Below, piece by piece: positions 14,637-32,855 of a stretch of 32,855 nucleotides of DNA. This stretch comes from Candidatus Heimdallarchaeota archaeon. GTDB lineage: Archaea > Asgardarchaeota > Heimdallarchaeia > JABLTI01. Positions within the stretch are counted from its first letter, which is position 1. Each line of letters starts with the position of its first letter. Under the pieces are notes generated by a model. That model was given only the letters and a program-made list of their open reading frames with translations. It was not told where the DNA came from and searched no databases. Where the stretch lies: the NCBI GenBank assembly GCA_019058165.1, contig JAHLVZ010000021.1, forward strand, positions 1 through 32,855. Reading direction: 5' to 3'. Made by a program: the position numbers and the translations under genes.

Positions 14637-14722
14637 GTGATGAACCTCCCAATTATTCGCATGAGTAGATCCAGGAATCGTATTATGATCCTAGTCCGGC
14701 GGTTAACTTTTACTTTGGTCAT
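14633..14722 (-). CDS. Possible 29-aa basic/hydrophobic microprotein
   Basis: It starts MTKVKVNRRTRIIIRFLDLL and ends MRIIGRFIT: a basic, amphipathic or membrane-seeking helix. Support is positional. It has an ATGA overlap at both ends (with the ASCH-like gene stop and the 59-aa gene start) and GGAGG about 8 nt before the ATG. Against it, the length is short and some overlaps arise by chance. If not translated, the segment is a short leader carrying the next gene's ribosome-binding site. Confidence 0.4.
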   Translation of the reverse strand: MTKVKVNRRTRIIIRFLDLLMRIIGRFIT

Positions 14723-15045
14723 GGGTCTTGGACCTCCTTCTGAAAAAGGTGCAAGAAAAAAACAGTCTCATCTGTCAAAGGTGTTGGATAGAATTGTTGG
14801 ATCTCTGAAATAGCAGCCTCTCGAGTCCTGGTATCAGTGTCGATGCAAAGTAACACTGTAGATAATTCTGCAAGAGTGAATTTCACTACAAGAAGACAAA
14901 GGGCAGGGAAAACATTCACATTAGGTTTGTTGTAGATCTTTACTTTTTCTCCTTCTTTGGCAAACTTGCTCTTCCTGAGAGTAGTAAACATTGGTTGATC
15001 AAGCTTGGACCAATACTTGGAGAAAACAATAACAGTATCACTCAT
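14719..15045 (-). CDS. ASCH/PUA-like domain protein (tentative)
   Basis: A 108-aa protein. The order of elements recalls ASCH domains: FSKYWSKLDQPMFTTLRKSKFAKEGEKVKIYNK (loop with Thr/Arg followed by a GEKVKIY strand in place of the GD.V.I signature), then a strand VVKFTLAELSTVLL, an acidic segment DTDTRTREAAISEIQQFYP, and TPLTDETVFFLHLFQKE. ASCH proteins bind RNA or modified nucleosides. The call rests on pattern alone. It overlaps both neighbours by 4 nt (ATGA). Confidence 0.45.
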   Translation of the reverse strand: MSDTVIVFSKYWSKLDQPMFTTLRKSKFAKEGEKVKIYNKPNVNVFPALCLLVVKFTLAELSTVLLCIDTDTRTREAAISEIQQFYPTPLTDETVFFLHLFQKEVQDP

Positions 15046-15305
15046 TTGTTATGGTCCTCCTTCATTTTTGGATTTCGATGCTTGATCTGCTTGAGCCTTT
15101 GATCATAGTAGTAATTCTTATGTTCATCAGCTAGAATCAAATTGATGGATTTCTTCTCTGCTAATGTTAGCAGATCGTAATCGACAATTCCTTTTAGAAC
15201 CAGATTATATAGCAGAAGGTTGATGTATCCAACGTTATCATTAGTAGATTTCAAGCCATTGATTTTGATCAAATGCCTATGTATTCCTTGCTTTGTTAGA
15301 AGCAT
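15042..15305 (-). CDS. Small element protein, unknown
   Basis: An 87-aa protein starting MLLTKQGIHRHLIKINGLK. It is predicted helical, with a hydrophobic centre (VGYINLLLYNLVLKGIVDYDLLTLAEKK) that could be the core of a small helical bundle, and a basic tail. It abuts the sulfotransferase stop directly and overlaps the ASCH-like gene by 4 nt. GGAGGAGG precedes the ATG. No family recognised. Confidence 0.5.
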   Translation of the reverse strand: MLLTKQGIHRHLIKINGLKSTNDNVGYINLLLYNLVLKGIVDYDLLTLAEKKSINLILADEHKNYYYDQRLKQIKHRNPKMKEDHNK

Positions 15306-16412: not shown

Positions 16413-16812
16413 TTTGCCCACTCCTTTCTTTTTGAAACAAACTATTCTGCACAGTCTCTATTTGCTCGAGCAATTCCTCTTCCGACATTTTCATCGCTAA
16501 CGCTATGTAATACGAGTTTAGTTTCGTTTTTAGTTGGAAAATCCTTTTTTCTTTCATAGAGAAAAGTTGGAACGTGTCAGTGTGCCAACCTCCGATGCTT
16601 TCAATCACAAAAATAATTATTAATCCGCTAACAAACATTAATACGTAAATTAGAGCAATCCAACCCATTTTTAAGGACAATCCGACTTGGGTTAATAATA
16701 ATAAGAGTAATGAGACAAAATTTGATACTTGAAAAACAAAGCTAAATTTTGAAACACCGTATTGGTACCTTGTGAGTTGTCTTACAAGGAAATTCACTAG
16801 TTTTCTTATCAC
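16399..16812 (-). CDS. Two-helix membrane protein paired with the sulfotransferase
   Basis: A 137-aa protein with two hydrophobic helices back to back, near residues 28-46 (VSNFVSLLLLLLTQVGLSL) and 50-70 (WIALIYVLMFVSGLIIIFVI), followed by a charged cytosolic C-terminus with a predicted coiled coil (MSEEELLEQIETVQNSLF). The start is a GTG at 16812, directly after the stop of the upstream gene (TAAGTG) and preceded by GGAGGG. Its end overlaps the sulfotransferase start, so the two are probably made together. No family recognised; it could anchor the sulfotransferase at the membrane. Confidence 0.6.
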   Translation of the reverse strand: MIRKLVNFLVRQLTRYQYGVSKFSFVFQVSNFVSLLLLLLTQVGLSLKMGWIALIYVLMFVSGLIIIFVIESIGGWHTDTFQLFSMKEKRIFQLKTKLNSYYIALAMKMSEEELLEQIETVQNSLFQKERSGQSEDD

Positions 16813-17046
16813 TTAACCACCCTCCTTCGTTTTGGAAAAGAAACAGATCTCCTCTAGTTCCTTTTTAGCAGCAGGATCGTTCATGTTCCTATTATCAGGA
16901 ATGCATTCACCATCATAGTTGAATTTGCAATCCAAATGAGGGCAACCTTTCAAAACATCTTCACTTATTTGTTCTGGATTAGGGATGCACCCTTCTCGCA
17001 AATGATTCCTAGCAATCCATAGTTTCAAGGTTTTATTGTCGCTCAT
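16813..17046 (-). CDS. Small Cys-rich protein
   Basis: A 77-aa protein starting MSDNKTLKLWIARNHLREG. Cysteines in GCIPNP, KGCPHLDCKFNYDGEC and EEICFF make a probable zinc- or iron-sulfur-binding knot. The ATG at 17046 is chosen over the longer frame (to 17094) because it forms an ATGA overlap with the upstream gene's stop and follows GGAGGAACC. Function unknown. Confidence 0.55.
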   Translation of the reverse strand: MSDNKTLKLWIARNHLREGCIPNPEQISEDVLKGCPHLDCKFNYDGECIPDNRNMNDPAAKKELEEICFFSKTKEGG

Positions 17047-17408
17047 TGATCCGGTTCCTCCTTTGCATACCAGAATTTGCAGAAAGCACACCAATTAGCA
17101 AGAGTAAAACTAGGATCAAATTTCTCCTGGTAACACTTGCAGCAATGGACTTTGGTTTCACCATCGCAAGCATGGCAATGTCGTAGGAGACAAGTATCAC
17201 AAATCCAATAGCCTTTTTCTTCTACGAATTTTATCTCGAAACAATAATCTCGTTCCTTTGTAAAATCATTGAAAGATGGTCCAGGTTCATGTCGAATGAA
17301 ATAGTGGCCACATTTGAGCAGGACCAAATAGTGTAGATGATCTAATTGTTTGCTCGCAAGAACCTCAACTAAATCATGACAGTCTGTGCAAACATAACTG
17401 ATAGTCAT
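17043..17408 (-). CDS. Multi-zinc-finger protein
   Basis: A 121-aa protein packed with metal-binding pairs: YVCTDCH at the start, KCGHYF, WICDTCLLRHCHACDG, VHCCKCYQ and WCAFCKFW near the end. Together that is enough for two or three zinc sites in a RING- or treble-clef-like arrangement. It overlaps both neighbours by ATGA. Such proteins are typical of archaeal viruses and plasmids, usually without an assigned role. Confidence 0.6.
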   Translation of the reverse strand: MTISYVCTDCHDLVEVLASKQLDHLHYLVLLKCGHYFIRHEPGPSFNDFTKERDYCFEIKFVEEKGYWICDTCLLRHCHACDGETKVHCCKCYQEKFDPSFTLANWCAFCKFWYAKEEPDQ

Positions 17409-18367
17409 TGGTCCTGGTCCTCCTTGAACATCTTGGCAACGTATTTGATGAAAGTTCTAAACTCTCGAGTGAGAGTATCAATTCGCTGATTCGTTGCAGC
17501 AACCATAGAAATAGCTTGAGTAGAAGTAACACTTCCTTGGACCATAGCCATGAATTTCTCTGCTGTGATTGGCTCATCTTTTGGAGCTACCGTTCCATGG
17601 AGCTCATTTCTGATTTTCACTGACCCGTCAGGGAATTTCTTCTTATATCTCCTGGCAAGCCAGTTACCAAAACCATAAAGAGTGATTTCTTCATTAGAAG
17701 TTATTTTTGCTTGTTTTCCTCCAATGGTTTTGTCAGAACCTATACCCCATTGCTTAACTAGCCATTTGTGTAATTGCTTCCAAACCTTCACGCTGGTGAG
17801 AAATTCAACAGCTGTCAAGAATTGCTTGAAGTCCTCAAAACCTAAAGGTTCATCTGTACATCCAATCTTAACTGTAAGTGAATCATTGTGTTTACCAAAG
17901 ACAAAAGTGATCTGTCGAAGAGGACTCATCTCAGCATGATAAGTAAAACCAAAACGAGGAATATTAACACCACAATTTGTGCAAAATTGAAAATCAGAGG
18001 TGAGAGGTTCGTCGCAAAATCGACAAGAGACACCGAGTCCCCCCTTTTGATGCACCCCTTCGAAGTAAAGAGTTAGCTGATGAACTTCCGGATATTTGGC
18101 ATCAGGAAATTGCCTGGAACGATACAATTTTGCTTCATAACCAAGCTTGGCTTTGTAAAAAGTGCACAAACCGGGTCTTTCTCGTAGAATAACTCCTGCT
18201 TTAGCCATCTTTAAGCAGTTTGTACGAACGGAATTATAGTTTAATTTGAGGGAGCCAGCAATATAGACCGGTGAGAAGCCCTTCTCTTCTTGTGAATTCT
18301 CTTCCAGGAAGCGAAGAACCTGCACTTTGATGGTATCAGTGTGCTTTGATGCTTTCTTTGATGTCAT
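17405..18367 (-). CDS. Winged-helix plus zinc-ribbon protein, possible replication or partition factor
   Basis: A 320-aa protein. Residues ~10-72 are a winged helix (TIKVQVLRFLEEN ... SPVYIAGSLKLNYNSVRTNCLKMAKAGVILRE). A zinc ribbon follows at C115-x2-C118 ... C129-x2-C132. The central ~130 residues (KIGCTDEPLGFEDFKQFLTAVEFL ...) are alpha/beta and unassigned, and the C-terminus (ATNQRIDTLTREFRTFIKYVAKMF) is helical. DNA-binding architecture, size and position beside the ParB-like gene make an initiator or segregation adaptor possible, but there is no HUH, AEP or Walker motif to prove replication. Overlaps by ATGA at both ends or nearly so. Confidence 0.5.
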   Translation of the reverse strand: MTSKKASKHTDTIKVQVLRFLEENSQEEKGFSPVYIAGSLKLNYNSVRTNCLKMAKAGVILRERPGLCTFYKAKLGYEAKLYRSRQFPDAKYPEVHQLTLYFEGVHQKGGLGVSCRFCDEPLTSDFQFCTNCGVNIPRFGFTYHAEMSPLRQITFVFGKHNDSLTVKIGCTDEPLGFEDFKQFLTAVEFLTSVKVWKQLHKWLVKQWGIGSDKTIGGKQAKITSNEEITLYGFGNWLARRYKKKFPDGSVKIRNELHGTVAPKDEPITAEKFMAMVQGSVTSTQAISMVAATNQRIDTLTREFRTFIKYVAKMFKEDQDQ

Positions 18368-18690
18368 TTGATATACCCTCCGTAAGTATTGTCTAAATCA
18401 GCAGGAGGATTAGTCTCACTGAACACTCTGAAGCCCTTAGAATCCTTGGAGAGTTTAAACCAATGATTATTTCTGCACGCAGCAAGGTGATGGTCTTTGT
18501 AGTTCCTAGCAATCTTGGTTCGAATCTTCAATCCACACCAAGGACACCAGGGAAGACCAAAAACATGTTCAGCCATCACTCGAGGATAACCTTCTCGCTC
18601 CTGGAATTCCTTCCGATGAATCTTTTTCTCCGTTTCAGGCTCAACTTTTTGAGAAGGCAAATGAGGATAAGGAGGAACAGATTTGGACAT
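18364..18690 (-). CDS. Small zinc-finger protein
   Basis: A 108-aa protein. The N-terminal half is polar and Pro/Glu/Lys-rich. The second half has LPWCPWCGLKIR and, about 20 residues on, DHHLAACRNNHWFKL, a CxxC...HH...C...H zinc site. It ends with an acidic NPPADLDNTYGGYIK tail. The ParB-like stop and this ATG overlap by 1 nt (TAATG), and the downstream overlap is 4 nt. Function unknown. Confidence 0.55.
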   Translation of the reverse strand: MSKSVPPYPHLPSQKVEPETEKKIHRKEFQEREGYPRVMAEHVFGLPWCPWCGLKIRTKIARNYKDHHLAACRNNHWFKLSKDSKGFRVFSETNPPADLDNTYGGYIK

Positions 18691-20831
18691 TAGTTTGCTC
18701 CTCCGGATTTAGAAGCTGCAGCAGCTTTCTTTTGCTGCTGACTATTAGAAAGTTCGCAGTTACCGCATAAATCTTGAGAAAGTTGTAGATGAGTCATTCG
18801 AAGGCAATTCTTGCAAGGTTTGGCAATTAATACACGGTCATTAGGTTCGAGTTTAGTGTATTCTGAAACCCATTGTAAAGCTCGTTTGAAATTGTCAATG
18901 TAGATCTTCATGTAAGCAACTTTTGAGTTGAATCGCTCGAATAAACTGATAGTGAAATTCTTGTTAAGATCACTCCAAAGATTCTTGGCATCGATGCGTT
19001 CTCGATTTAGTTCAGGATAATACTTCTGGAAGAATTTCCAGTTAAACTCAATCATGTTGTGAGAATTATTATGGACTAGCCGGATGAAGTCTTCATCAAT
19101 GGGAAAAATAGGTTTCTTATTGTAGAACTCTCGAGCAGGAGAGAAGTATTTCTCAACCTTCTTTTGCTCAGGCCACTCCTCGAACCAGAGTCGGGTCCCA
19201 CCACCTTCAAGTTTGTCTTCACGAAGGATTATAGGTGAAAACCTTGGAGGGAGAACTGTGAACTCTTCTGCAGAAAGATCCAACCAAACCAAGTTTTCTA
19301 CAGAAGGATCCTTCGCCAAGGACTTTAATCGATTATTCTCTTTCTGAACATGAGCAGTGATTTGCTCTCGCTCATCAGAATCAGAATAATAAAAGCGATA
19401 ATGATTGGGGTCCTTATGTAGATCTACAACAACACCAGGAGCAATGTTTTTCAAAACTTCCCGGAGCTCTTCTAAAGAAAGATTAGTTGTTAAGTAGAAG
19501 GTCTTTCGTGCTTGACCAGTTGCTAACACACTAGAGATTTGTTCAGGGGTGAGAGGAGTATAACGTTTGAGTTGGAATTCATCAAGAGGATAAGCATCTT
19601 TATTTTCTAAAAGCCATTTGATTGCGTTCATATGATCATCATACTCTCGCCATCGAACATGGACCAATTCACCGTTTGGTTGGTAAGATTGAATCTTCCC
19701 TGAGATTTTAGAATTAGATTTTTTCAGAGCATTAAATTGATTCTCTGTAAGAACAGTAGTTCGATCATCCATATGGGTTTTTACTTTGGGTTTTCTGGAT
19801 CGTTCTAGAAGAAGCTTGAACTCTTTCTTATCAGCAAGATCCTTCCAGATAACATCTACTCGAGTATGGCCATTAGCTTCTGGGAATTCTTTGAAGATAA
19901 CAGCATTCTCGTAGGTTTTTAATACCCCTTTCAGGTCTTTGTCTAAACCAACGTAAGCAACAAAACCATTGATGATTTCAATGAGTTTAATGTAGGCTTC
20001 TTGATTAGGAACCTTGACCAAGAAATCAGAGGATTTCTCGTCTTCCTTGTGGTCCAGGATTAATTCCTTGATTGGACCATAATCTTGTAGACAGAGCCAT
20101 TTGGTTCGTGGAACTTTGTGAATGTAAGGCTTGTCAACTTCACCAGAAGGATTGATCACTGATTCGTCGAAAGGATCATCTTCCGGATCTTCGATAGCAA
20201 TGGTTTCCCTGACAACTCCAGCCTGGACCAGTTTGCCAGCTAATGGAGATTCTTCAGGGTGAGTGACGTCACTCACTTCAAAGCTGGTGACGTCACCAGG
20301 TTTTTTGCGAATAATTGATCTTAAGGATATTTCACCTGAGAAATACTCTTCTTGTTCATTAGATTCTAATCCAAGTATATGTAATCGAATGCGTAACCAT
20401 TGACGATTAACACCAAGCAGTTTTGCTAATTTAACTTGAGAAAGATCAGGATTAGAATTCTTAACCTTCAAAACTAATTGACATTCTTCTTTAACTGATA
20501 GTTGCTCTTTTTTGAAGAAAGTCTTAAGCATAATATAGTATGCTTCTTCTCGAGTAACTGGAAGAATGTTAATCTTCTCACCAATTGGTAGTTGTGCATC
20601 AGCTGCAACCTCTAGTAGTCTTGTAGCCCTTCTGTTTCCATCAATGAGAACAAACGCCTTATCTTCAGGAACATCACCGACATCATATTTTGAATAGGGT
20701 CTTGCTACTAAAGCAATATTCATATCCTGAACTGATTGTATATCTTCGAGATCATCAGTAGTTATTGTTTCTCTTGGATTGTCAGGATTGAATCCGATAT
20801 CTGAAAGCTTAATATACTGAATTACTGCCAC
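18690..20831 (-). CDS. ParB-like DNA-binding protein (713 aa)
   Basis: The largest gene of the element. Residues 1-~100 are a ParB/sulfiredoxin-like domain: IKLSDIGFNPDNPRE, then VLIDGNRRATRLLEVA with GNRR at 65-68 in the place of the ParB GERR box. Residues ~128-154 form the ParB helix-turn-helix (DLSQVKLAKLLGVNRQWLRIRLHIL). The remaining ~550 residues are unassigned and include a C-terminal zinc pair (KPCKNCLRM ... DLCGNCEL) and an Ala/Ser/Lys tail. No ParA ATPase gene is in the window. Classical ParB is under half this length, so it may be a partition protein with an extra module or a ParB-family regulator or nuclease. Two long palindromes lie inside its own gene (20259-20299). Confidence 0.75.
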   Translation of the reverse strand: MAVIQYIKLSDIGFNPDNPRETITTDDLEDIQSVQDMNIALVARPYSKYDVGDVPEDKAFVLIDGNRRATRLLEVAADAQLPIGEKINILPVTREEAYYIMLKTFFKKEQLSVKEECQLVLKVKNSNPDLSQVKLAKLLGVNRQWLRIRLHILGLESNEQEEYFSGEISLRSIIRKKPGDVTSFEVSDVTHPEESPLAGKLVQAGVVRETIAIEDPEDDPFDESVINPSGEVDKPYIHKVPRTKWLCLQDYGPIKELILDHKEDEKSSDFLVKVPNQEAYIKLIEIINGFVAYVGLDKDLKGVLKTYENAVIFKEFPEANGHTRVDVIWKDLADKKEFKLLLERSRKPKVKTHMDDRTTVLTENQFNALKKSNSKISGKIQSYQPNGELVHVRWREYDDHMNAIKWLLENKDAYPLDEFQLKRYTPLTPEQISSVLATGQARKTFYLTTNLSLEELREVLKNIAPGVVVDLHKDPNHYRFYYSDSDEREQITAHVQKENNRLKSLAKDPSVENLVWLDLSAEEFTVLPPRFSPIILREDKLEGGGTRLWFEEWPEQKKVEKYFSPAREFYNKKPIFPIDEDFIRLVHNNSHNMIEFNWKFFQKYYPELNRERIDAKNLWSDLNKNFTISLFERFNSKVAYMKIYIDNFKRALQWVSEYTKLEPNDRVLIAKPCKNCLRMTHLQLSQDLCGNCELSNSQQQKKAAAASKSGGAN
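20259..20299. repeat. Twin perfect palindromes with core GTGACGTCAC inside the ParB-like gene
   Basis: GTGAGTGACGTCACTCAC (20259-20276, 18 bp, perfect) and CTGGTGACGTCACCAG (20284-20299, 16 bp, perfect) share the 10-bp core and have centres 24 bp apart. They encode the two DVT tripeptides at about residues 180-190 of the ParB-like protein. I saw no other copy of the core in the window. A cis site (parS-like, operator or origin dyad) for an element-coded protein is the natural hypothesis. Confidence 0.6.
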
Positions 20832-21094
20832 TAGGCTTCCTCCTTCACTTTTCGTTCGTTCTTCCAGTAGTTAAGATCTGCAGGAGGCTCCGGTTCAGGA
20901 GCAATCTTCAGCCAATCTTGAGTATGCTCTCGAGAGCAGAAGTAATGATGTTTCACTGTGGGGATCATCTTTCCATCAGAGTAGGTCCAGTAAGTCGATT
21001 CTTGTAAGAAGTAGGTTTGTGAACCATCTTTCTTGTCATGGTTTCCATGGATCCTTCTGCCACACATTCGACAATGAACTGTTCCTCTAGGCAT
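20831..21094 (-). CDS. Small zinc-finger protein next to ParB-like gene
   Basis: An 87-aa protein with VHCRMCGRRIHGNH at the N-terminus and HHYFCSREHTQDWL in the middle, together a treble-clef-like CxxC...C..H site. A Pro/Glu segment (PEPEPPADLNYW) follows; PPADL also occurs in the 18364-18690 protein. It overlaps both neighbours by 1 nt (TAATG). Function unknown. Confidence 0.55.
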   Translation of the reverse strand: MPRGTVHCRMCGRRIHGNHDKKDGSQTYFLQESTYWTYSDGKMIPTVKHHYFCSREHTQDWLKIAPEPEPPADLNYWKNERKVKEEA

Positions 21095-21660
21095 TAGAAT
21101 CCCTCCCGGAGATGCGAAGGATAAATTAATTCACCCATGCTAGCCAAGCGAATGATTTCTTTCTCTTGACCATTTCTACGAAGATATCTGAGAAGAATTT
21201 TGATATCTTCCAACTTGCGATAATAAGTATCATTGAGATTATTTTCAATCTGGAGTCGTTGAGCAATGACAATAGCATAGAGTTCCTCGTCATTCTTGCG
21301 TAATAATACAAGCTTTAAAGGAATGCTGATTAATTCATAGACTGGTTCTAGTGCATCAATGAAGGTCCTATACCAGGTGAAATCTTCAGGAATAAGATCA
21401 AGTTTTTCTTGTTTCATTTCCTCAAGATTTTGATAGACTCTGAGAATGGCATAGGGATTCTCAAAGGTACAATAAAGCTCATTTTTAGTTAAAATTATTA
21501 ACTCGAGAAGCTTCTTATGACTTACCCAGTTCTCTAGTGCTTCCAATAATTGGATAGCTGAGAGAATTTGGGGCTCAAACCCGGCGATGGTCTTATGGAC
21601 TTGGTGAACCAGGATCTCGCTGGGAACCATATTTTCTAAATGTTCAAATTCTTCAAACAT
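21094..21660 (-). CDS. Helical element protein, unknown
   Basis: A 188-aa helical protein starting MFEEFEHLENMVPSEIL. The frame is open further upstream, but the ATG at 21660 lies just after GGAGGAG and right after the RHH gene stop, so it is the likely start. Acidic and Leu/Ile-rich helices run throughout (LLEALENWVSHKKLLELIIL; PLKLVLLRKNDEELYAIVIAQRL). No cysteines suggest metal binding and no family is recognised. Confidence 0.55.
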   Translation of the reverse strand: MFEEFEHLENMVPSEILVHQVHKTIAGFEPQILSAIQLLEALENWVSHKKLLELIILTKNELYCTFENPYAILRVYQNLEEMKQEKLDLIPEDFTWYRTFIDALEPVYELISIPLKLVLLRKNDEELYAIVIAQRLQIENNLNDTYYRKLEDIKILLRYLRRNGQEKEIIRLASMGELIYPSHLREGF

Positions 21661-21661
21661 T

Positions 21662-22093
21662 TCATTTCTCCTCCTGGAGCATCTCAAAGCCTTTGAGTAA
21701 TCGGCTGAGATCATCTTTTGATTCCAGGGATTTAACCTTCTTAACGAAGTCAACAATCTTGCTCAATTCAACGTCTGCTGTGTTGCATTCTGTACCAACT
21801 GGACAATTAAGGCAAGAATTCTTATTCTGACAATCATCGATGATAGCAGTCCATTCTTCAGCAAATCTTACTAATTCTTGAAAAGCAGTCAGAGTAGAAT
21901 CAGTATCAGATCTGGATATCCTTAACTGATTATCAAAAGCTTGGCGCATAAAATCAGAACGATTCTTGTATTCCTTAGGAATCTTAGAATCTATTGCTGC
22001 AGCTATCTCAGCATCAACCAATAATCCAAGTTGAACCATTGCTTTCTCTTCTGTAGGAATCTTCTTGGGACGTCCTCTTCCGGAATTGATCAT
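21662..22093 (-). CDS. Ribbon-helix-helix protein with a Cys cluster
   Basis: The protein (143 aa) opens with a basic arm (SGRGRPKKIPTEEK), then an RHH domain: strand AMVQLGLLVDAEIAAAI, then EYKNRSDFMRQAFDNQLRI. A cluster CQNKNSCLNCPVGTEC (residues ~88-103) follows and could bind zinc or an iron-sulfur cluster, making metal- or redox-sensitive DNA binding possible. The C-terminus is helical. It is near the promoter end of the operon, which fits an operon or partition regulator. GTAGGAGG lies 8-9 nt before the ATG. Confidence 0.65.
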   Translation of the reverse strand: MINSGRGRPKKIPTEEKAMVQLGLLVDAEIAAAIDSKIPKEYKNRSDFMRQAFDNQLRISRSDTDSTLTAFQELVRFAEEWTAIIDDCQNKNSCLNCPVGTECNTADVELSKIVDFVKKVKSLESKDDLSRLLKGFEMLQEEK

Positions 22094-22107
22094 GTTGTGA
22101 AAACCTC

Positions 22108-22425
22108 CTACACAAAGAGATGAAGATCAGTCGAGCTGACACTTCTAACCATCGAAGCACGGATAGGAATGAACCCAAGTGAAACAAAGCCTTCTCTGAC
22201 AAGAATTGTTCTAGCATTAGTGGATCGAGCTACGATCTTAACGACTGAATCAATTTGTTCCTCAGTCATTTGCTGGATATCCATTCGATAGATTTCTTCT
22301 CTCACTGGTTTATTCCCCAGTCGAGCTGATTCAAGTAAAATACTTGTAAGAGGAATCTTGCCATCAGGAAACGCATCACCATAGAGCATCTTTCCCTGGT
22401 CGTTGAGATAACCATAGTTTGGCAA
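22108..22425 (-). CDS. Element hypothetical protein (105 aa)
   Basis: Starts MPNYGYLNDQGKMLYGDAFPDG; the centre is helical (MTEEQIDSVVKIVARS) and the end is beta-like (TILVREGFVSLGFIPIRASMVRSV). No diagnostic motif. It lies 14 nt upstream of the RHH gene and 2 nt after the next gene, within the operon. Function unknown. Confidence 0.5.
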   Translation of the reverse strand: MPNYGYLNDQGKMLYGDAFPDGKIPLTSILLESARLGNKPVREEIYRMDIQQMTEEQIDSVVKIVARSTNARTILVREGFVSLGFIPIRASMVRSVSSTDLHLFV

Positions 22426-22427
22426 AA

Positions 22428-22619
22428 TTAGTTCTCCTCCTTATTCATCTTGAGATGTTTCTCTCGAGCTAAATCATAAGCCTCTTTCTTAGATAGTCCT
22501 CCCTTCTGAGAGACTTTCTCGCCAGTTCTTTGATTCACAACCCAATAGTTAGAGTGCTTTGAATTTGTGAAAACAATGAACGGATAAGTAGATGTTATTC
22601 CTTGAATACTCAAGAACAA
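22428..22619 (-). CDS. Small element protein (63 aa)
   Basis: Starts MFLSIQGITSTYPFIVFTNS. The second half, VNQRTGEKVSQKGGLSKKEAYDLAREKHLK, looks like a small beta-hairpin followed by a helix. Not recognised. It follows the first operon gene with no gap. Confidence 0.45.
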   Translation of the reverse strand: MFLSIQGITSTYPFIVFTNSKHSNYWVVNQRTGEKVSQKGGLSKKEAYDLAREKHLKMNKEEN

Positions 22620-22901
22620 TCACCCTTTTACAGCAGCCTTAGAAGTTGCTTCATCTAGGCTGGGATTCTTGGCAGCAGATCCATGCTGCTTGTCTATTTG
22701 CTTCTTCAATTCAGAAGCCTGGAGAAGTATTTTACCAGGTTGAGTTGAAAAATCAAATCCTTTTGATTCGACCCAGAATTTACACAGAAAAAAGACTGCT
22801 TCATCTTGGTCGAATTTTCCCTCTTCCAGCTCTTTGAGAGCTTTCTGAGTTTCGTCAAAGACTGATTTTGTTTTATCAGTCGTCTTAATAGTTGAAACCA
22901 T
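22620..22901 (-). CDS. First gene of the leftward element operon, hypothetical
   Basis: A 93-aa helical protein, acidic in the middle (TQKALKELEEGKFDQDEAVFFLCKFW) and with a basic/Ala-rich tail. No motif. Its importance is positional: it is the promoter-proximal gene of the roughly 11.5 kb operon and is divergent from the winged-helix gene across the AT-rich region 22902-23066. Confidence 0.5.
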   Translation of the reverse strand: MVSTIKTTDKTKSVFDETQKALKELEEGKFDQDEAVFFLCKFWVESKGFDFSTQPGKILLQASELKKQIDKQHGSAAKNPSLDEATSKAAVKG

Positions 22902-23660: not shown

Positions 23661-23682
23661 AGGAGTAAAAAAAATTACTCCT
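23661..23682 (-). terminator. Perfect stem-loop at the end of the transglutaminase gene
   Basis: AGGAGTAA and TTACTCCT form a perfect 8-bp stem around a 6-nt loop, including the stop codon of the minus-strand gene. It is followed on that strand by T-rich sequence. Probable terminator, also a candidate boundary between the element and host genes. Confidence 0.5.
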
Positions 23683-24718
23683 GAAGAATAAACGAACCAG
23701 TTGATTGTAAACTTGCAGTTGTTGGTGGATCAGCAAAAGACCAGGTGAAGATAGATCCCCAGTCACTAAAGGCTGTATCAAAGTAATGTTGTAACCAGGA
23801 AGGATTTTCGCCAATGTTGTTTGTCCAATCGGGTGTGACATCAACGATTAGCCAATCATAATCTCCTCCAAAAGTCCAGAGATCTGCTGTTGGATAATCG
23901 AGGGGATCTATTTGAACCCAAATGAAAGCATGATGAAATCCTCCGGGTTGATAATCAGGATGATCGTAATCATGGACAATTCCAAAATTAGTGTCAAAAC
24001 CATTGTTTTCCATCATTGCTGCTAGGAGAATGCTGAAATCATCGCAATCACCGCGTTTATATTTGAGCATCTCGAGAGGTGAGAGGAAGAGATCAAAAGG
24101 TACTACTCGATTGTAAAGAGTAACACTGTCAAGAGTGTAATCGATGTTATTTCTTACCCATTGGAAGATGTCTGCTTCATCGTTGGTTCCGTCCCAGCAA
24201 TCAAGCCAGGCAGGATCGATGTCATCCTGTGAGACACAAAAAACATTTTCTACTGCAGCCCAAGCGTCATTCATTGAGCCACCGAATTCCCAAAAATCGT
24301 ATTCCGTTAGAACAGTATCAACTTCACTAAAAGCATTGTATTGGCTTGAACCATGCAAGATCATCTCTGCTCCTGAATCAGCTGTTGTTTGGTCACTAGT
24401 ATGATCAAAACAAACATACCTGCAGAGATGATAGTAATAAGTCATCTTATCAACAATTGGTAGTGCTTTTACAAAAGCCATGATTCCTTCGATTTCTATC
24501 TCAAGATCTTCATTTGTTCCAAGTAGTGCTTGAAAAGCAGCGACAAGAGCTTCATGGGTTTCATTCAAAGCACTATGATCATCTACTAAGACATCGTTAG
24601 TTTCTTGTAGATCATTCAACTGCTTATTTTTTACGATAAATAATCCTGTCATAGCCCCAATCCCTGAAGCACCGACAATGGATACAATTATCAAAGGTAC
24701 TAGTAAATTTCCTTTCAT
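23675..24718 (-). CDS. Membrane-anchored transglutaminase-like protein
   Basis: A 347-aa protein. Residues ~4-27 are a single N-terminal membrane helix (LLVPLIIVSIVGASGIGAM), then a coiled-coil stalk, then an extracytoplasmic domain. The transglutaminase-like triad is visible: Cys225 in KRGDCDDFSILL, His262/263 in GFHHAFIWV and Asp293 in WLIVDVTP. The ATG at 24718 with GGAGATA upstream is preferred over the longer frame. Members act as cysteine proteases or amide cross-linkers at the cell surface, but the substrate is unknown. Trp/Asp-rich and acidic, it contrasts with the basic element genes and is probably host. Confidence 0.75.
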   Translation of the reverse strand: MKGNLLVPLIIVSIVGASGIGAMTGLFIVKNKQLNDLQETNDVLVDDHSALNETHEALVAAFQALLGTNEDLEIEIEGIMAFVKALPIVDKMTYYYHLCRYVCFDHTSDQTTADSGAEMILHGSSQYNAFSEVDTVLTEYDFWEFGGSMNDAWAAVENVFCVSQDDIDPAWLDCWDGTNDEADIFQWVRNNIDYTLDSVTLYNRVVPFDLFLSPLEMLKYKRGDCDDFSILLAAMMENNGFDTNFGIVHDYDHPDYQPGGFHHAFIWVQIDPLDYPTADLWTFGGDYDWLIVDVTPDWTNNIGENPSWLQHYFDTAFSDWGSIFTWSFADPPTTASLQSTGSFILQE

Positions 24719-24926
24719 TGAAAAAATATCTCCTTTTCCAAAGTTACTTAATCTATTGTTTGGAATTTTAAAATAGTTTTCTATAGTCAAAACTATCACA
24801 ATATCAATTGATAAATTTAGAAGAAAAAAGAACTAATTGCACCTAGTGATGCATTTAGTAATGCAAGTCAATATGTTGACTTTCAAACTAACGTGTAAAT
24901 ATGATAACAGCTATCATCAAGTATCC
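24719..24926. other. Intergenic, nothing recognised
   Basis: AT-rich sequence carrying the presumed promoter of the transglutaminase-like gene. No open frame or repeat of note before the first CRISPR repeat. Confidence 0.4.
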
Positions 24927-25118
24927 ATTTCAATACTCTTATTCGAGCTTTAGCTTTTGTAACTTTAGTTCCATCAAGAACGAAAAACGGAATATATTTC
25001 CCTTAATTTCAATACTCATAATTGAGCTTTAACTTTTGTAACTGGAATTTACAATTTCACTTGTTGGGTTAATGATACTACATTTCAATCCTCTTAGTTG
25101 AGGTGTTACTATTGCTAC
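24927..25118 (-). CRISPR. Short, decayed CRISPR array (3 repeats)
   Basis: Repeats at 24927-24963, 25006-25042 and 25082-25118 (37 nt each) with spacers of 42 and 39 nt. The repeat is the one used in the large array at the other side of the cas operon (plus-strand form starts ATTTCAATACTC and ends GTAAC). The first has 3-4 changes, the second one, the third about ten. Read as crRNA the array is on the minus strand, with the conserved 3' handle ATTGAAAT in all three. The third keeps the hairpin stem through paired changes (CCTC/GAGG instead of GCTC/GAGT). Confidence 0.85.
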
Positions 25119-25424: not shown

Positions 25425-25964
25425 ATGGATTTAAACCAAATTGCTTACGAAGTAGCTTTAAGAGGAAATAGAACAGGATTAGCTAATAAACAATTATATA
25501 CAATGAAAAATATTATTGCAAGGAAACGTAAAGAATATCTAATTGATTATGTTAAGAGACAAATATCCAGAAATGTAATCAAGACATTGTTTGCAAATTA
25601 CTTTTTATCCATAATCGAAAAAATAAGTAAAGAAAAAATACATGAATTACTTGGTAAAGTACTCAATATTTTTGATTATGTAAAAATCGAACCATTCATA
25701 GAACATTATAATTCATTTATAAGTCAATTAGAAAAAAGGTTTAATATTAATATAACTAATCTTGATATTTTTGTAGAAAATGGCAATAGGAAATTTGACA
25801 TTTTGATAAAGGAAAGGAAGCGATTAGATTATAAAGAGGTTAGTGTTTTTGTTGAAGATTACTTCGAAGAAAAGATGAAAAGAAAACTAAAAATTGAAGA
25901 ATCTTTTTATCTTTGTAGTAAAAGAGAAAAACCCAGAAATTTCACTGATGTGAAATTTGGTTAG
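25425..25964 (+). CDS. First gene of type III cas operon: helical, small-subunit candidate
   Basis: A 179-aa, very basic and helical protein. A segment near the N-terminus (TGLANKQLYTMKNIIARKRKEYLIDYVKRQISRN) could be the helical bundle of a Cas11/Csm2-type small subunit. The C-terminal half is mixed (ITNLDIFVENGNRKFDILIKERKRL). It is the first of six same-strand genes and its end lies just before the Csm3-like start (a few nt, or overlapping if an upstream TTG is used). Complexes of this type need a small subunit and no other obvious one is present, but sequence alone does not establish it. No enzymatic motif. Confidence 0.45.
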   Translation: MDLNQIAYEVALRGNRTGLANKQLYTMKNIIARKRKEYLIDYVKRQISRNVIKTLFANYFLSIIEKISKEKIHELLGKVLNIFDYVKIEPFIEHYNSFISQLEKRFNINITNLDIFVENGNRKFDILIKERKRLDYKEVSVFVEDYFEEKMKRKLKIEESFYLCSKREKPRNFTDVKFG

Positions 25965-25986
25965 TAATATATGGAGGAGTAAATTT

Positions 25987-26679
25987 TTGAGTAGATTTGA
26001 AAATTTTGAAAAAAGATGGAAAATACAAGGAAAAATTGTGTGTGAGACTAATGTAGCGATTGGTTCAGGTGAACCAATATCAACAGGTGATCCAGCACCA
26101 GTAATGAAAACTCATGAAGGTGTACCATATATCCCAGGCTCTACTTTGAAAGGTGTAACAAGAGCTGCAGTTGAAAGGATACTAAATGGGCTAGGTATTG
26201 ATGTTTGTAAAAACAAATTACATCCAAGCGGAAAACTTTGTAAATCATGTGAGATATTTGGTGCAATGAGCTTTGGAAGCAAAGTAATATTTCGTGATTC
26301 AATTGCAAAAAAGGATAGTTATGAATTTGGTGTTCGAACTGGAATAGCGATAGATCTTGATACTGGTTCAACAAAAAGAGGAGCTAAATATGACATTGAA
26401 TTTGTAGAAGTGGGGAGTGAATTTCCATTGGAGATTATTTTTGAAAACCCAAAGGAGGATGAACTCTCGATATTATTTGCAGCTTTAAAATCAATTCCAG
26501 CTATTGGTGGTCATTCAAGTCGTGGTTTAGGTAAAATCAAGATTTTAATAGAAAAGGTAGATATCTATAACCCAAATGATTATTTCAAAACAAAAGTGAG
26601 CCCATCAGAAGTAATGGAAAAAGAGAAATTAGCTCAATATATAACAAAGATTAGCACACCATATCTAAAGGAGAAATAA
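25987..26679 (+). CDS. csm3: Type III Cas7 (Csm3-like RAMP)
   Basis: Backbone subunit that lines crRNA and cuts target RNA at 6-nt intervals. Features in 230 aa: the N-terminal RAMP strand; ISTGDPAPVMK with Asp35, placed like the catalytic Asp of Csm3; GVPYIPGSTLKGVTRAAVERIL (classical IPGSSLKG); a Cys pair in LCKSCEIFGAM; VRTGIAIDLDTG; and the Gly-rich IPAIGGHSSRGLGKIKI loop. The TTG at 25987 is chosen because GGAGGAG lies 7 nt before it; a TTG at 25957 lacks this. It is the only clear Cas7 in the operon, whereas III-A and III-D loci usually have more. Confidence 0.88.
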   Translation: MSRFENFEKRWKIQGKIVCETNVAIGSGEPISTGDPAPVMKTHEGVPYIPGSTLKGVTRAAVERILNGLGIDVCKNKLHPSGKLCKSCEIFGAMSFGSKVIFRDSIAKKDSYEFGVRTGIAIDLDTGSTKRGAKYDIEFVEVGSEFPLEIIFENPKEDELSILFAALKSIPAIGGHSSRGLGKIKILIEKVDIYNPNDYFKTKVSPSEVMEKEKLAQYITKISTPYLKEK

Positions 26680-26685
26680 TAAGTT

Positions 26686-28725
26686 TTGCTATTTTCATCG
26701 TTAGATTTGTGGGAATTGAGAATTGCTCTCTTATTACATGATATAGGTAAGGTGCATCCAAAACATTTTGATTCTAATCATCAAAAAAGAAGTACAGAAA
26801 TGATTCAATCAAGTTTAGATGAATTAAAAAAGAACAAAATGCTCAAAGAATCAATTGAAAGAATTGAATTATATATAAACTATCACCATGGGGAATGGCC
26901 AAAAATTATAGATTCCAAAGAAGAATGGGGATTATTTCTTACTAGAGTTGCAGATAATGCTAGTTCCATATATCAAAAAAGAAATGTTGAAGCATTTTGT
27001 GATAAACAGTCAAGTATAATACGAAGTTTTCCAACAGGTTCTAAGTATTTTCTAATTAGTCAAACCAAAGCTAAACAATATAAAAAATCAATAAGTGATA
27101 TAATTAATAATTTTCTAAATGGAAAAAAAGTCAAAAAAATAGAAGATATTTTTCACAAATTTCTTACAAATTTGTTGATAACAGCAAATAAAAATCCTGA
27201 CAAAGATATATATCATATTCTTGCAGAAGTACCATCAGATACACGTTTTCCCATTAATGACCATTCTTTGTATTCACATTTAAAAGCTGCCTGCTTAATA
27301 GGTGCTAACTTAGTTCCTTTTTTTGATAAAACTACTAAACAGCTAAATGCTTCTATTTGTTTAGTTAGATTAAGCTTTAAAACAAAGGAAAGATTATTAC
27401 AAGCTATTAGAATCAAAGATACCACAGGAAGAATTGAATTACATAGTTTCTTCTTTAAAACACTAATAAATGAATTAATGAAACAACACATCCTAATAAC
27501 AACTAATTCTGGAAAGTTTGATTACAATATATCTTGGGAAAATGTAGTTTATCCAGACCCAATCAGAATATTTAGATCACATGAAATAAGTGAATCCATC
27601 ACTCCAGCAATAGACGAATTTGTGATTATTCTACCAGGAAATAAAGAAGTAATTCATAGAATAATTGGTGATACAATAAAGGCAGTTATAAATATTGCTT
27701 CAGAGAAATTTTCCCTAAACTCTCAGAAATTAAGTCAATATTTGCAACCTTGGTTATGTATTAAAGAAGAGAAAATTTCTGAAAATATAAATTTAAGAAA
27801 ACCATGGATTATCGCAAGCAAGATTAGCAAAAAAATAGCAGATATGTTGGATTCTGATATCTATGAAATAAATAATTTACTAATAAATAATCTTCATGTT
27901 AATAATACTGCCAATTCCTCTGAAAGTAAATTTTGCTCTTCATGTGGATTGTTTCATGGTGAAAGCTCACTGGATAGTTTTGATTATGTATGCACTTTCT
28001 GTGAAAAAATTAGAGAATTAGGGAAAGGAGCATGGATTGATGATATAGCAGATTCTAATAATGATATAGCAAGATTTACCCTAGAAGCAAAAAATTTAGA
28101 TAAATGGCTATCTGGAGAGATTAAATCAAAATTCTCAACAATTGTATTAGATATACCTAAAGCTTCTTTGGAAAGATCCCATTCATTGGCAAGAACTATA
28201 GAATTAGACTTGCGAATCGAGAAAGCAATGAGTAATTGTGTAAAGTTGATTGAAAATGAAATGAGAAAATATAAATTTAGAAGAATACATGCGAAATTTA
28301 ATGCTAAAGGAAAGAATATACCAAATGTACCAGTTTTAGGTAATTTCCAATTAAATGGAGAAACATATGGGGCGTATTTTAGAAAAACTAGTAATGAAAT
28401 ACAAGTAGAGGTTATAGGGATTCCTTATAAGAAGAAAGTAGATTTCAAAAAAGCTTTGGAGAACACTTCAGAAATAAAAATTAGTACTCGTCAAAGAGAA
28501 TTTTGTTTAAAGGGAATTAGAAACATAACCTTCTTAGAAAAAACAACACAATTTAAGATTATCTCACAAAGTAATGCTCTTTTAGAGGTTTTATTACCTG
28601 GAAAAATAGGATTTGAAATTTCAATTAAAATAAACAAATCTTTCTTTGAGGAAACAGGTATGGAAATACAATCATCTTGTTTAATTTTTAATAAGAAACA
28701 ACCTTTGCCACAACTTAGGGGGTAA
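26686..28725 (+). CDS. cas10: Cas10, HD nuclease present, cyclase GGDD motif missing
   Basis: Large subunit, 679 aa. The N-terminal HD domain has His18-Asp19 (LLHDIGK), His67/His68 (INYHHGEW) and Asp90 (RVADNAS), so single-strand DNase activity is plausible. A four-Cys zinc site is at C417/C420 and C436/C439 (CSSCGLFH ... CTFC), as in Cas10 proteins before the second palm. No GGDD or variant is anywhere in the protein; the equivalent region reads FSTIVLDIPKASLERSHSLAR. Cyclic oligoadenylate synthesis is therefore not expected. Loss of the cyclase is characteristic of subtype III-C, but the operon differs. TTG start at 26686; a 1-nt TAATG overlap with the next gene. The C-terminal ~180 residues are divergent. 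Confidence 0.82.
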   Translation: MLFSSLDLWELRIALLLHDIGKVHPKHFDSNHQKRSTEMIQSSLDELKKNKMLKESIERIELYINYHHGEWPKIIDSKEEWGLFLTRVADNASSIYQKRNVEAFCDKQSSIIRSFPTGSKYFLISQTKAKQYKKSISDIINNFLNGKKVKKIEDIFHKFLTNLLITANKNPDKDIYHILAEVPSDTRFPINDHSLYSHLKAACLIGANLVPFFDKTTKQLNASICLVRLSFKTKERLLQAIRIKDTTGRIELHSFFFKTLINELMKQHILITTNSGKFDYNISWENVVYPDPIRIFRSHEISESITPAIDEFVIILPGNKEVIHRIIGDTIKAVINIASEKFSLNSQKLSQYLQPWLCIKEEKISENINLRKPWIIASKISKKIADMLDSDIYEINNLLINNLHVNNTANSSESKFCSSCGLFHGESSLDSFDYVCTFCEKIRELGKGAWIDDIADSNNDIARFTLEAKNLDKWLSGEIKSKFSTIVLDIPKASLERSHSLARTIELDLRIEKAMSNCVKLIENEMRKYKFRRIHAKFNAKGKNIPNVPVLGNFQLNGETYGAYFRKTSNEIQVEVIGIPYKKKVDFKKALENTSEIKISTRQREFCLKGIRNITFLEKTTQFKIISQSNALLEVLLPGKIGFEISIKINKSFFEETGMEIQSSCLIFNKKQPLPQLRG

Positions 28726-29666
28726 TGTCTATTACAGATAAAAAAGTGATATATACTATTGAATTAAAGAATAATTCACCACTAGCCACCTATAAGAATA
28801 AATTATATCCAGTAAAAATCAGCATAACAAAAAATAATCATCTGGAATTTAGAAATAAACACTTTAAAGGTTTAATCAAGTCTTATCCCAATTTGAAGAA
28901 AGAATATTCGAATCTAGAAAGAATATTATTGTCATTTCAGACAAGTCCTTTAGATAGCAATATCTTATTACAGTTTGTGGATGATATTAATGATTTTTTA
29001 AATAAAATGAAAAATCAAGATAAAATTAGTGATATTTATGAGTTAATTTACAATAATATTTTTATCAGCTTTGATTTTATAATTAAATTACAACTAAATA
29101 ATGGAATAGAAGACGAAATTAGTTGGAAATATCAACAAGGATCTTATAGTTTAAGATTAGGTTTATTTTTAGCGGGGCTTGAATCAATATTAATTGATTC
29201 GCCAAAATATACAAAATATATTGAGATTGCTTCAATAGATTCAGATGCAAATCGTTTATTATCAATAAATATAGAAGAGGATGAAAAGGAGAAAATTATT
29301 GGCAAGATTAATTTTAGAAAATTCATTCAAGGTTCGATAGAGTTAGAAAAAACGAAATCAATATACTCACTAAATGAATTTATTCAAACATCAACCCTAG
29401 CAAATGAACTAATACAATCTATTCAAAATGGTGGACCAAGGTCACTAAAAAAATCACAAATACATAATCACCTCAGAAGTTTAAAAACTAATAATATTCA
29501 TGATTTTAAGTTTAAACTTAAAAATACAGTAGCAAATGGCTATATCCCTAGTAATTTAGGGAACAAATTACTAAATTGGTTAGAAGAGGAAAATCAAGTA
29601 ATTTTAGAAAAACGCTTTCAATTATTATTAGATTTATTTAATTTGTTAATTCAAAGGGAGGATTAA
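28725..29666 (+). CDS. Unrecognised protein inside the type III operon
   Basis: A 313-aa protein with a 1-nt overlap at the cas10 stop (TAATG, AGGGGG before it) and 1 nt before the next gene. The N-terminus is beta-rich (KVIYTIELKNNSPLATYKNKLYPVKISIT), the middle is mixed, and the C-terminus is helical (NGGPRSLKKSQIHNHLRSL ... SNLGNKLLNWLEEENQVILEKRFQLLLDLFNLL). SQIHNHLRSL recalls the SQIRxxxxxV of Csm2-type small subunits, and the N-terminus could be a decayed RAMP. Either would make it a structural subunit. I do not recognise a known family, and none of the usual Gly-rich RAMP loops is clear. Confidence 0.5.
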   Translation: MSITDKKVIYTIELKNNSPLATYKNKLYPVKISITKNNHLEFRNKHFKGLIKSYPNLKKEYSNLERILLSFQTSPLDSNILLQFVDDINDFLNKMKNQDKISDIYELIYNNIFISFDFIIKLQLNNGIEDEISWKYQQGSYSLRLGLFLAGLESILIDSPKYTKYIEIASIDSDANRLLSINIEEDEKEKIIGKINFRKFIQGSIELEKTKSIYSLNEFIQTSTLANELIQSIQNGGPRSLKKSQIHNHLRSLKTNNIHDFKFKLKNTVANGYIPSNLGNKLLNWLEEENQVILEKRFQLLLDLFNLLIQRED

Positions 29667-29667
29667 A

Positions 29668-30585
29668 GTGAAGATAACAGCGAAATTAATGGAATTAAAA
29701 TGGGAAGCAAAGAATCCAATTCATATAGGAAAAGGAATGTTAATAGGTAATACACATCTAACAATGGATTATATTCCTGGAACATCAATTAAAGGAGCTA
29801 TTGGAAACAATTTTTTAAAACTATTTTGCATTAATAATGAATTTGCTACATGCACAAAGGGTGGAAATTGTAAAAAATGTAAGTTCCCAGATATTTTCTT
29901 AAATAATAACCATAGTTCGGGTGTTTATTTTTATTCATTTATTCCTGAAGATTATAAACTTGAGAACCAGTATTCAGTTACAATAGACCCTGATACTAAG
30001 TCTTCTAAAACTGGCGAGTTATATAATTACCAAAAATTGGTAATAATAAGTAAAGATAATACTTTGAAATTGATCATGACAGATACTATAGATGAAGAGA
30101 TTGTTGAAAAAATAAAAACTGCAATTAACGTAAATTTACAAGTTGGTTCTAGAAAAAGCTGGGGATGGGGAATAATTAATATAAAAAGTATTAAAACAAA
30201 GGATATTGAAATCTTAGAAAAGAATTCAACCTCGAAAGAAAAAACTTTCAAGATTGAATTAAAATCACCCTTTCCTATTACTGAAAGAAATTTTGATGAA
30301 ACATTAAAGAAGGGATTTAGAGATTTAGCAAAAGGATTCCAATTTGATGATTATCAAGATTTTACAAAAATCAATTATCAAAGATATGAAATAAAACCAA
30401 TTAGTACTCGTTCGGAGATTAATACGAAAGTCATTCGGAATATGGCAGTAACTCCTCCTTTTTATTTTGAGCTTTTCGGAACATCAAAAAATGAATTTGT
30501 ATTAAAACTTGGTCAGATTTTTGGCGTAACAACATCAAATAGTCCCTGGACGAAAACTGGTTATGGATTAATTAAACTTGTTTAA
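29668..30585 (+). CDS. csx10: Csx10/Cas5-like RAMP of type III
   Basis: A 305-aa protein with two RAMP-like halves. N-terminal half: LKWEAKNPIHIGKG, YIPGTSIKGAIGNNFLKLF, a Cys cluster (ATCTKGGNCKKCKFPDIF), VTIDPDTKSSKTGELYNYQKLV and the Gly-rich VGSRKSWGWGIINI loop. C-terminal half: a second domain ending VTPPFYFELFG ... TKTGYGLIKLV. This order resembles Csx10 (subtype III-D Cas5-like subunit that caps the crRNA 5' end), though it is shorter than typical. GTG start with GGGAGG upstream. Csm4/Csm5-like identity is possible. Confidence 0.65.
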   Translation: MKITAKLMELKWEAKNPIHIGKGMLIGNTHLTMDYIPGTSIKGAIGNNFLKLFCINNEFATCTKGGNCKKCKFPDIFLNNNHSSGVYFYSFIPEDYKLENQYSVTIDPDTKSSKTGELYNYQKLVIISKDNTLKLIMTDTIDEEIVEKIKTAINVNLQVGSRKSWGWGIINIKSIKTKDIEILEKNSTSKEKTFKIELKSPFPITERNFDETLKKGFRDLAKGFQFDDYQDFTKINYQRYEIKPISTRSEINTKVIRNMAVTPPFYFELFGTSKNEFVLKLGQIFGVTTSNSPWTKTGYGLIKLV

Positions 30586-30678
30586 GGATTTTTATGAAAA
30601 TGTCTTAACTTTGAAAATAATAATCTTAATTATGATAAGTAGTTCCTAGAATCTTGAGTTGTAGAGCAGTGAAAAAAG

Positions 30679-31470
30679 ATGATAAAATTAATATTTAAAA
30701 TAACAGCAACTAAAGAAGCATATTATCCAACATTTACAGGTCATATATTAAGGGGGGCAATATTATCTATTATTAATGAAGAAAAACCAACAATTGCAGA
30801 AATTTTGCATGAATCAAATAAAATGAGACCATATAGTATCGCACCTTTAAGTTATCAAGAAATAAGATGGACTAAACGAGGAGAAGTTCACATAATACCA
30901 GGAGATAGTATGAGTTTTCAATTGAATATTTTTGATAAGTCAATTGAATATTTAATTCTCCAAATTTTTGAAAGTAAAGAAATTTTTCAATTAAAATTGT
31001 TTCAGGATCCCTTCTTAATAGAGAAAATAGAAGTGATAAAAAATGAATTTTCGGATTTACTATCATTTGAAAAAAAATTAGAGAAATTTAGATTCAAATT
31101 TCTAACACCAACTTATTTTAGCATAAGAAAACAAAAATTCCCATTAAGATTTCCTGATCCTCGATACTTATTTGCTAATTTAAGTAGGATATGGAATAAT
31201 TTCAATAAAGATATTCAAATAAATGAAGAAATGTTTCATGAATGGGTGTCAAATAGCATTTCAGTTACTGGATATAATTTAGAAACATCTACTTTGAACA
31301 TTTCAAAAGGTATACCGAAAATTGGTTTTAAAGGATGGGTTAATTACAAAATCTATTCTGAAGAAAAGAAATACCAAATGTGGATTGATGTTTTAGCCAA
31401 ATTTGCAGAATTCAGTAATATTGGCGGGGGACGAACAGCAGGTTTTGGGTGTGTAAAGTATATTCCTTAA
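30679..31470 (+). CDS. cas6: Cas6 crRNA-processing endoribonuclease
   Basis: A 263-aa RAMP that would cut the repeat RNA 8 nt before each spacer. It has the N-terminal YYPTFTGHILRGAILSII (His22 is a candidate catalytic residue), a central RFKFLTPTYFSIRKQKFPLRFPDPRYLFANLSRIWN segment and the diagnostic C-terminal Gly-rich loop FSNIGGGRTAGFGCVKY. It is separated from the csx10-like gene by 93 nt and may have its own promoter. The conserved repeat 3' end ATTGAAAT fits its predicted 8-nt tag. No cas1 or cas2 follows. Confidence 0.85.
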   Translation: MIKLIFKITATKEAYYPTFTGHILRGAILSIINEEKPTIAEILHESNKMRPYSIAPLSYQEIRWTKRGEVHIIPGDSMSFQLNIFDKSIEYLILQIFESKEIFQLKLFQDPFLIEKIEVIKNEFSDLLSFEKKLEKFRFKFLTPTYFSIRKQKFPLRFPDPRYLFANLSRIWNNFNKDIQINEEMFHEWVSNSISVTGYNLETSTLNISKGIPKIGFKGWVNYKIYSEEKKYQMWIDVLAKFAEFSNIGGGRTAGFGCVKYIP

Positions 31471-31812: not shown

Positions 31813-32855
31813 ATTTCAATACTCTTAGCTGAGCTTTAGCTTTTGCAACCTACAAGTAATGCAGCTAATAGATGTTATAATGACTCATAATTTCAATACT
31901 CATAATTGAGCTTTAGCTTTTGTAACTTTAGCAGATGCTAGCACAGGTGAACCATACCATCAAGAATTTCAATACTCATAATTGAGCTTTAGCTTTTGTA
32001 ACAATATGTTTTATATGAGAGTACATCAGTTCAGTAAAATACATTTCAATACTCATAATTGAGCTTTAGCTTTTGTAACTAAAACCCCAGAAGAGCGAGA
32101 CGTCGAAGGCCAAGAAATTTCAATACTCATAATTGAGCTTTAGCTTTTGTAACTTAGGAACATCTATCAGTGTTGACAAAGATTTAATATTATTTCAATA
32201 CTCATAATTGAGCTTTAGCTTTTGTTACCTGAAGAGGTTTATGCAGGGGGATATATAGACTTTCCACTATTTCAATACTCATAATTGAGCTTTAGCTTTT
32301 ACAATTAGTAAAGGTTTGCATTTACGGAGTATGCGATGTGATTGCATTTCAATACTCATAATTGAGCTTTAGCTTTTGTAACACTAATCTCAGCAATAGA
32401 AGAATACATACTAACACATTTATTTCAATACTCATATTTGAGCTTTAGCTTTTGTAACTCCGCATAGAATTAGATACTATGGCAAAAATGTTTGAAATAT
32501 TTCAATACTCATAATTGAGCTTTAGCTTTTGTAACAACATGGTTTTTACTACAATAGCATTTTACGAAACAACATTTCAATACTCATAATTGAGCTTTAG
32601 CTTTTGTAACAGAAAGTAAAACTTAATAGCTATTTCATGTATCAATTAAATTTCAATACTCATAATTGAGCTTTAGCTTTTGTAACTTTATTACAAGCAA
32701 TAATGAAATGGTTCTTCGGTAATTTATTTCAATACTCATAATTGAGCTTTAGCTTTTGTAACTTAAACTTGATGTTCTTAGCAAAAGCACTCATGGCTAG
32801 ATTTCAATACTCATAATTGAGCTTTAGCTTTTGTAACTTAAACTTGATGTTCTTA
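31813..32855 (-). CRISPR. CRISPR array, 14 repeats seen, continues past the window
   Basis: 37-nt repeats start at 31813, 31890, 31966, 32043, 32117, 32192, 32269, 32346, 32422, 32499, 32574, 32650, 32726 and 32801. The 13 complete spacers are 37-40 nt, and a 14th is cut at the window end. Most repeats are identical. The first has about 4 changes, those at 32192 and 32422 one each, and the one at 32269 has an altered last 5 nt. Transcription is inferred on the minus strand, because the repeat then begins GTTAC and ends ATTGAAAT, with a small GCTCA/TGAGT hairpin. The degenerate first repeat is then the old, leader-distal end, and the leader lies beyond 32855. Confidence 0.96.

Follow-up and report, generated by a model that had tools for sequence, protein, structure and literature searches.

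A type III CRISPR-Cas operon combining a III-C-like, cyclase-deficient Cas10 with III-D-like RAMP subunits in a Heimdallarchaeota contig

The window analysed here is the whole of contig JAHLVZ010000021.1 (32,855 nt) from a Candidatus Heimdallarchaeota archaeon (assembly GCA_019058165.1). Between positions 25425 and 31470 it carries six open reading frames (ORFs), all on the plus strand, that form a type III CRISPR-Cas operon with a Cas10 large subunit, the RAMP proteins Cas7 and Cas5, and associated CRISPR arrays (Table 1). The arrays, which an earlier note on this DNA does not mention, lie one on either side of the operon and share a single repeat family, with 17 repeats between them.

Table 1. 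Coordinates of the operon, its motifs and the flanking arrays
Feature	Position	Strand	Description	Basis
Short CRISPR array	24927..25118	- (presumed transcribed strand)	3 repeats, two degenerate	
ORF1	25425..25964	+	179 amino acids (aa); probable small subunit, Cas11/Csm2-like	
Cas7	25957..26679	+	Csm3/Csx7-like, III-D type	TIGR02581, profile scores, tree
Cas10	26686..28725	+	679 aa; HD - palm 1 - zinc finger - degenerate palm 2	
HD nuclease motif HDIGK	26737..26751	+	Cas10 aa 18-22	Invariant in alignments
Zinc site C417-x2-C420 ... C436-x2-C439	27934..28002	+	In Cas10	Invariant in alignments
WIDDIAD	28033..28053	+	Cas10 aa 450-456; III-C-type palm 2 signature	Alignments
QSNA	28567..28578	+	Cas10 aa 628-631, in the GGDD columns	Alignments
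Cas10/ORF4 junction	28718..28725	+	GGGGG run, then Cas10 stop TAA, whose last A is shared with the ORF4 ATG (TAATG)	Sequence reading
ORF4	28725..29666	+	313 aa; no detectable relatives	
Cas5	29668..30585	+	305 aa; Csx10-like RAMP	
Cas6	30679..31470	+	CRISPR RNA (crRNA)-processing endoribonuclease	Family matches
Main CRISPR array	31813..32855	-	14 repeats of 37 nt; spacers 37-40 nt; interrupted by the contig end	

Cas10 matches the HD family (E-value 9e-7) and TIGR02578 (4e-11). In an alignment with 10 other Cas10s of the same phylum, the HD residues H18, D19, H32, H67, H68 and D90 and the zinc cysteines C417, C420, C436 and C439 are invariant, in agreement with the earlier note, which had called both sites intact. 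The same note had reported loss of the GGDD cyclase motif, and two alignments (11 and 34 Cas10s) bear this out: QSNA occupies the GGDD columns, and the remaining Cas10s of the phylum in the alignment set retain GGDD, SGDD, NGDD or KGDD. The protein terminates right after the last palm 2 strand, and the C-terminal D4 domain is missing. A separate Cas10 lineage of the phylum (loci L088, L090 and L097; ~540-590 aa) has no visible HD motif and carries NGDD, SGDD or KGDD in place of GGDD; RAMP-like proteins of ~770 aa adjoin these genes. Another Cas10 with no visible GGDD (L170, genome G554) proved to be a III-D Cas10 with a masked stretch.

With the whole Cas10, the first matches were to general Cas10 models. 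Searched by itself, the C-terminal part has a sole PADLOC match, the III-C model Cas10c (8.9e-6), which ranks second for the N-terminal part (1.4e-9). For comparison, 20 III-C Cas10s were gathered from other archaea. Profile scores favor III-C over III-D and III-A both for the whole protein (49 bits vs 30 and 22) and for palm 2 (28.2 bits vs 3.5 and 1.2, with 4.3 for the best of 200 shuffles). The motif WIDDIAD...LDKWLSG is a near-exact counterpart of the III-C motif W[IM]DE.AD (WIDE[IV]AD), which is exact in 12 of the 20 III-C Cas10s, has close variants in others of them and is absent from 31 further Cas10s. In the tree, this Cas10 sits on the III-C stem (Shimodaira-Hasegawa-like approximate likelihood ratio test, SH-aLRT, 97), outside the sampled III-C clade itself (support 100).

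Cas7 and Cas5 point to III-D instead. Both match RAMPs (1e-24 and 1e-16, respectively), and Cas7 also matches TIGR02581 (5.7e-37). With profiles of unequal depth, of which those for III-D were built from the same phylum, so that III-D scores may be inflated, Cas7 reaches 172 bits for Csm3 (92 for III-A, 37 for Cmr4) and Cas5 reaches 70.8 bits for Csx10 (31.3 for Cmr3). Cas7 falls among the III-D Csm3s in its tree, with 40% identity to the Csm3 of locus L098, and Cas5 groups with Csx10 (support 99), as had been read from the sequence earlier. The Cas5 alignment has no Cas7-type catalytic Asp. A Cmr3-like identity of Cas5 (PADLOC Cmr3, 1.6e-13) was considered and dropped, given the 71 bits of the Csx10 profile vs 31. 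The earlier note had described a Csm3-like Cas7 with its Asp; the first half of this description stands, but the canonical catalytic Asp is doubtful. When Cas7 is aligned gaplessly with III-D Csm3 from PVMKT to PYIPG, P45 fills the catalytic column and D44 lies one residue before it; an alternative alignment puts Asp on Asp but shifts PVMK.

The predicted Cas6 is well supported by PF10040 (3.4e-15), TIGR01877 (1.2e-17) and PADLOC Cas6d (1.4e-28). Two proteins had been left unassigned. ORF4 stays in that category, but ORF1 is probably a small subunit: it has a weak match to the III-D Csm2 model of PADLOC (6.9e-6), matches III-A Csm2 in phmmer (4e-4) and has a pairwise score 7 standard deviations above shuffles. 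Judged from these profiles and trees, the mixture of subtypes is real, with Cas10 palm 2 nearest III-C and Cas7 and Cas5 nearest III-D. Phylogeny did not gather Cas10, Cas7 and Cas5 into one subtype, and the suggestion that the operon fits neither III-C nor III-D is upheld.

ORF4 has no match in family libraries or profile searches and no convincing relative among 228 genomes of the phylum; against D4, Cmr5 and RAMP profiles it scores no better than shuffles. A single-sequence AlphaFold model is mostly helical but of low confidence (predicted local distance difference test, pLDDT, 52), and a PDB search with this model returned no significant match, the III-D Csm2 chain 8bmw_B ranking 19th (E-value 5.3). 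Most likely, ORF4 would be a detached D4/Cas11-like helical domain that restores the missing C-terminal part of Cas10; it could possibly be a second small subunit. A role outside the complex, as a separate accessory or effector protein, would suit an orphan with no similarity to any Cas protein, yet the ORF4 gene, with its overlapping codons, is flanked by cas10 and cas5 within the operon, small subunits of helical type may diverge past recognition, and the protein would make up for what is missing from an otherwise incomplete Cas10. We consider such an outside role improbable.

The Cas10/ORF4 junction allows a different account. An additional G at 28718-28722, or a -1 slip there, would join the two frames into a protein of ~993 aa, within the size range of III-C Cas10s (900-1171 aa). 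A single Cas10 might then have been split at the GGGGG run, whether through mutation, a sequencing error or programmed slippage, and the operon would be decayed or mis-assembled; the lack of D4 in Cas10 alone is consistent with this. However, ORF4 shows no similarity to D4 in profile comparisons, exceeds the III-C D4 by about 100 aa and is joined to Cas10 by a TAATG overlap of a kind common in operons. A fusion would also leave the III-D Cas5 and Cas7 and the absence of cmr1, cmr6, cmr4 and cmr5 unchanged. We therefore regard a split Cas10 as unlikely.

Both arrays are probably transcribed leftwards because the reverse complement of the repeat consensus ends in ATTGAAAT, the canonical type III 5′ handle, and because the main array has a degenerate repeat at its low-coordinate end. 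At 32726-32855, the final repeat, together with the initial 18 bases of its spacer, is identical to the unit before it, possibly an artifact of assembly so close to the contig end. Comparison of the spacers with phages gave zero matches. In the host genome (assembly 86% complete), neither the array repeat nor a second type III Cas7 match occurs elsewhere, and Cas1 was not found although two CRISPR arrays are present.

We think it reasonably probable that the locus is a stand-alone type III effector operon of mixed ancestry, whose signalling-free, crRNA-guided complex would defend mainly through the HD DNase of Cas10. In the mechanism that we propose, minus-strand transcripts of the flanking arrays would be cut by Cas6 into crRNAs with a AUUGAAAU-type 5′ handle. 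Several Csm3-like Cas7 subunits would coat the crRNA, the Csx10-like Cas5 would cap its 5′ end, at which Cas10 would attach, and Cas11 (ORF1, perhaps together with ORF4) would form the second filament. ORF4, coupled to Cas10 as a separate subunit, would most likely supply the absent D4/Cas11-like C-terminal part. Since palm 2 has no GGDD and the protein has no D4, Cas10 would be unable to synthesize cyclic oligoadenylates (cOAs). Recognition of the presumed target would most likely trigger single-stranded DNA cutting by the HD nuclease; Cas7 might also slice the target RNA, though this is uncertain. As noted earlier, there is no CARF/Csm6 effector among the neighbors scanned, where the weak matches seem, from the matched stretches, to be helix-turn-helix parts.

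Several observations weigh against parts of this model. Cas10 sits on a very long branch (2.5), and placing it with III-A is still compatible with the approximately unbiased (AU) test (p 0.30; 0.20 on zinc finger plus palm 2); because of both, the affinity of Cas10 to III-C is a preference, not proof. The AlphaFold model of Cas10 made without an alignment failed (pLDDT 35). In alignments of Cas7 with III-D and III-A Csm3s, D44 precedes the canonical catalytic column by one residue. Comparisons by hidden Markov model (HMM) or hhalign reveal no measurable likeness between ORF4 and D4 domains, and the role of ORF4 is read only from its position, its helicity and the domain missing from Cas10. Finally, when Cas10, Cas5 and ORF4 were used as protein queries across 147-393 genomes (393 archaeal genomes for Cas10), no orthologous operon that would show conservation of the whole came to light. 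A scan of genome contigs with a generic HD motif gave one unrelated match only, viral contigs yielded one short RAMP match and otherwise only an HD protein similar to a tRNA nucleotidyltransferase, and plasmids had no match.

The genes flanking the operon look archaeal. Beside it, a co-directional cluster on the minus strand (11449-22901) resembles an integrated element and encodes a tyrosine integrase (11452-12390), a radical-SAM-like protein, a sulfotransferase, a ribbon-helix-helix regulator and a 713-aa ParB-type-like protein. Three tandem paralogs of a short protein with a zinc ribbon and a membrane segment lie at 8401-9943. Immediately before the short array, 23678-24799 encodes a transglutaminase-like protein (DUF553, 1.2e-8) whose N-terminal part has a membrane segment.

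An HD-only, cyclase-dead Cas10 has previously been described in III-C, III-F, III-G and III-H; cyclase loss is thus known in III-C, to which the earlier note had ascribed it, but is not peculiar to that subtype. A similar gene set is found in III-F (Thermotoga lettingae Tlet_0097-0100), which is HD-positive, cyclase-negative and effector-free (PMC11229360), as is this operon, and which by literature description also has a single Cas7, a Cas5 and a Cas11. The operon could be a divergent III-F member in which cas6, arrays and an additional gene happen to be present: its gene set agrees except for ORF4 and Cas6, and III-F complexes are termed Csm-type (PMC8036902). But PADLOC Cas7_IIIf scores 12-14 bits on pieces of Cas7 vs 44-58 for Csm3 models, no other III-F model is among the matches listed for Cas5 or Cas10, and published accounts give III-F no cas6 (PMC8616872) and for the most part no arrays (PMC12669027). 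Set apart by these descriptions and PADLOC models, membership in III-F seems to us doubtful.

III-H is archaeal and, as here, combines a dead palm and a retained HD with an altered Cas10 C-terminal domain and no cOA effectors (PMC12669027). It is described with Cas11 in place of the Cas10 C-terminal domain; here there are two separate ORFs. PADLOC Cas10h does not match this Cas10, whole or in pieces, and a Cas10h search in 80 archaeal genomes gave one weak match only. The Cas7 proteins of III-G and III-H also lack the conserved Asp, and these systems are predicted DNA cutters (PMC12669027). III-A and III-B, with an active GGDD cyclase and CARF effectors, differ from this operon, which has QSNA and no effector nearby.

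With III-C (e.g., Methanothermobacter MTH328-323; loci L106, L108 and L152-L168), this Cas10 shares the HD, a dead palm 2 and the WIDE[IV]AD...LD.W signature, though it lies outside the sampled clade. III-C Cas10s have lost GGDD at the same columns, with RSPL/GAPT-like loops where this protein has QSNA, but they possess D4. III-C loci follow the order cmr1-cmr6-cas10-cmr4-cmr5-cmr3 (16 of the 18 loci read; contig ends truncate the remaining two), and profile scans detected no cmr1, cmr6, cmr4 or cmr5 in this operon. Csm3-like Cas7, Csx10-like Cas5 and Csm2-like Cas11 are common to the operon and III-D (same-phylum loci L104 and L098; solved complex 8bmw). However, the III-D Cas10s in our comparison keep GGDD and have a permuted HD, neither of which is found here, and III-D has several Cas7 paralogs where this operon has one.

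A separate, previously undescribed subtype, in which a III-C-like cyclase-dead Cas10 is joined to III-D Cas5, Cas7 and Cas11 and would work as two proteins, an HD-palm chain and the detached C-terminal ORF4, can be proposed only tentatively. The operon suggests that a RAMP backbone can be combined with a large subunit from another subtype, and a Cas10 that ends at palm 2 next to an orphan helical partner would make D4 function testable in trans. The operon is a rare variant of a known defense type and does not represent a new kind of system. The type III systems that gave up cOA signalling (III-C, III-F, III-G and III-H) are joined here by what looks like an independent case; that principle was already known, and what is unusual here is the combination of subunits and the truncated Cas10 accompanied by ORF4.
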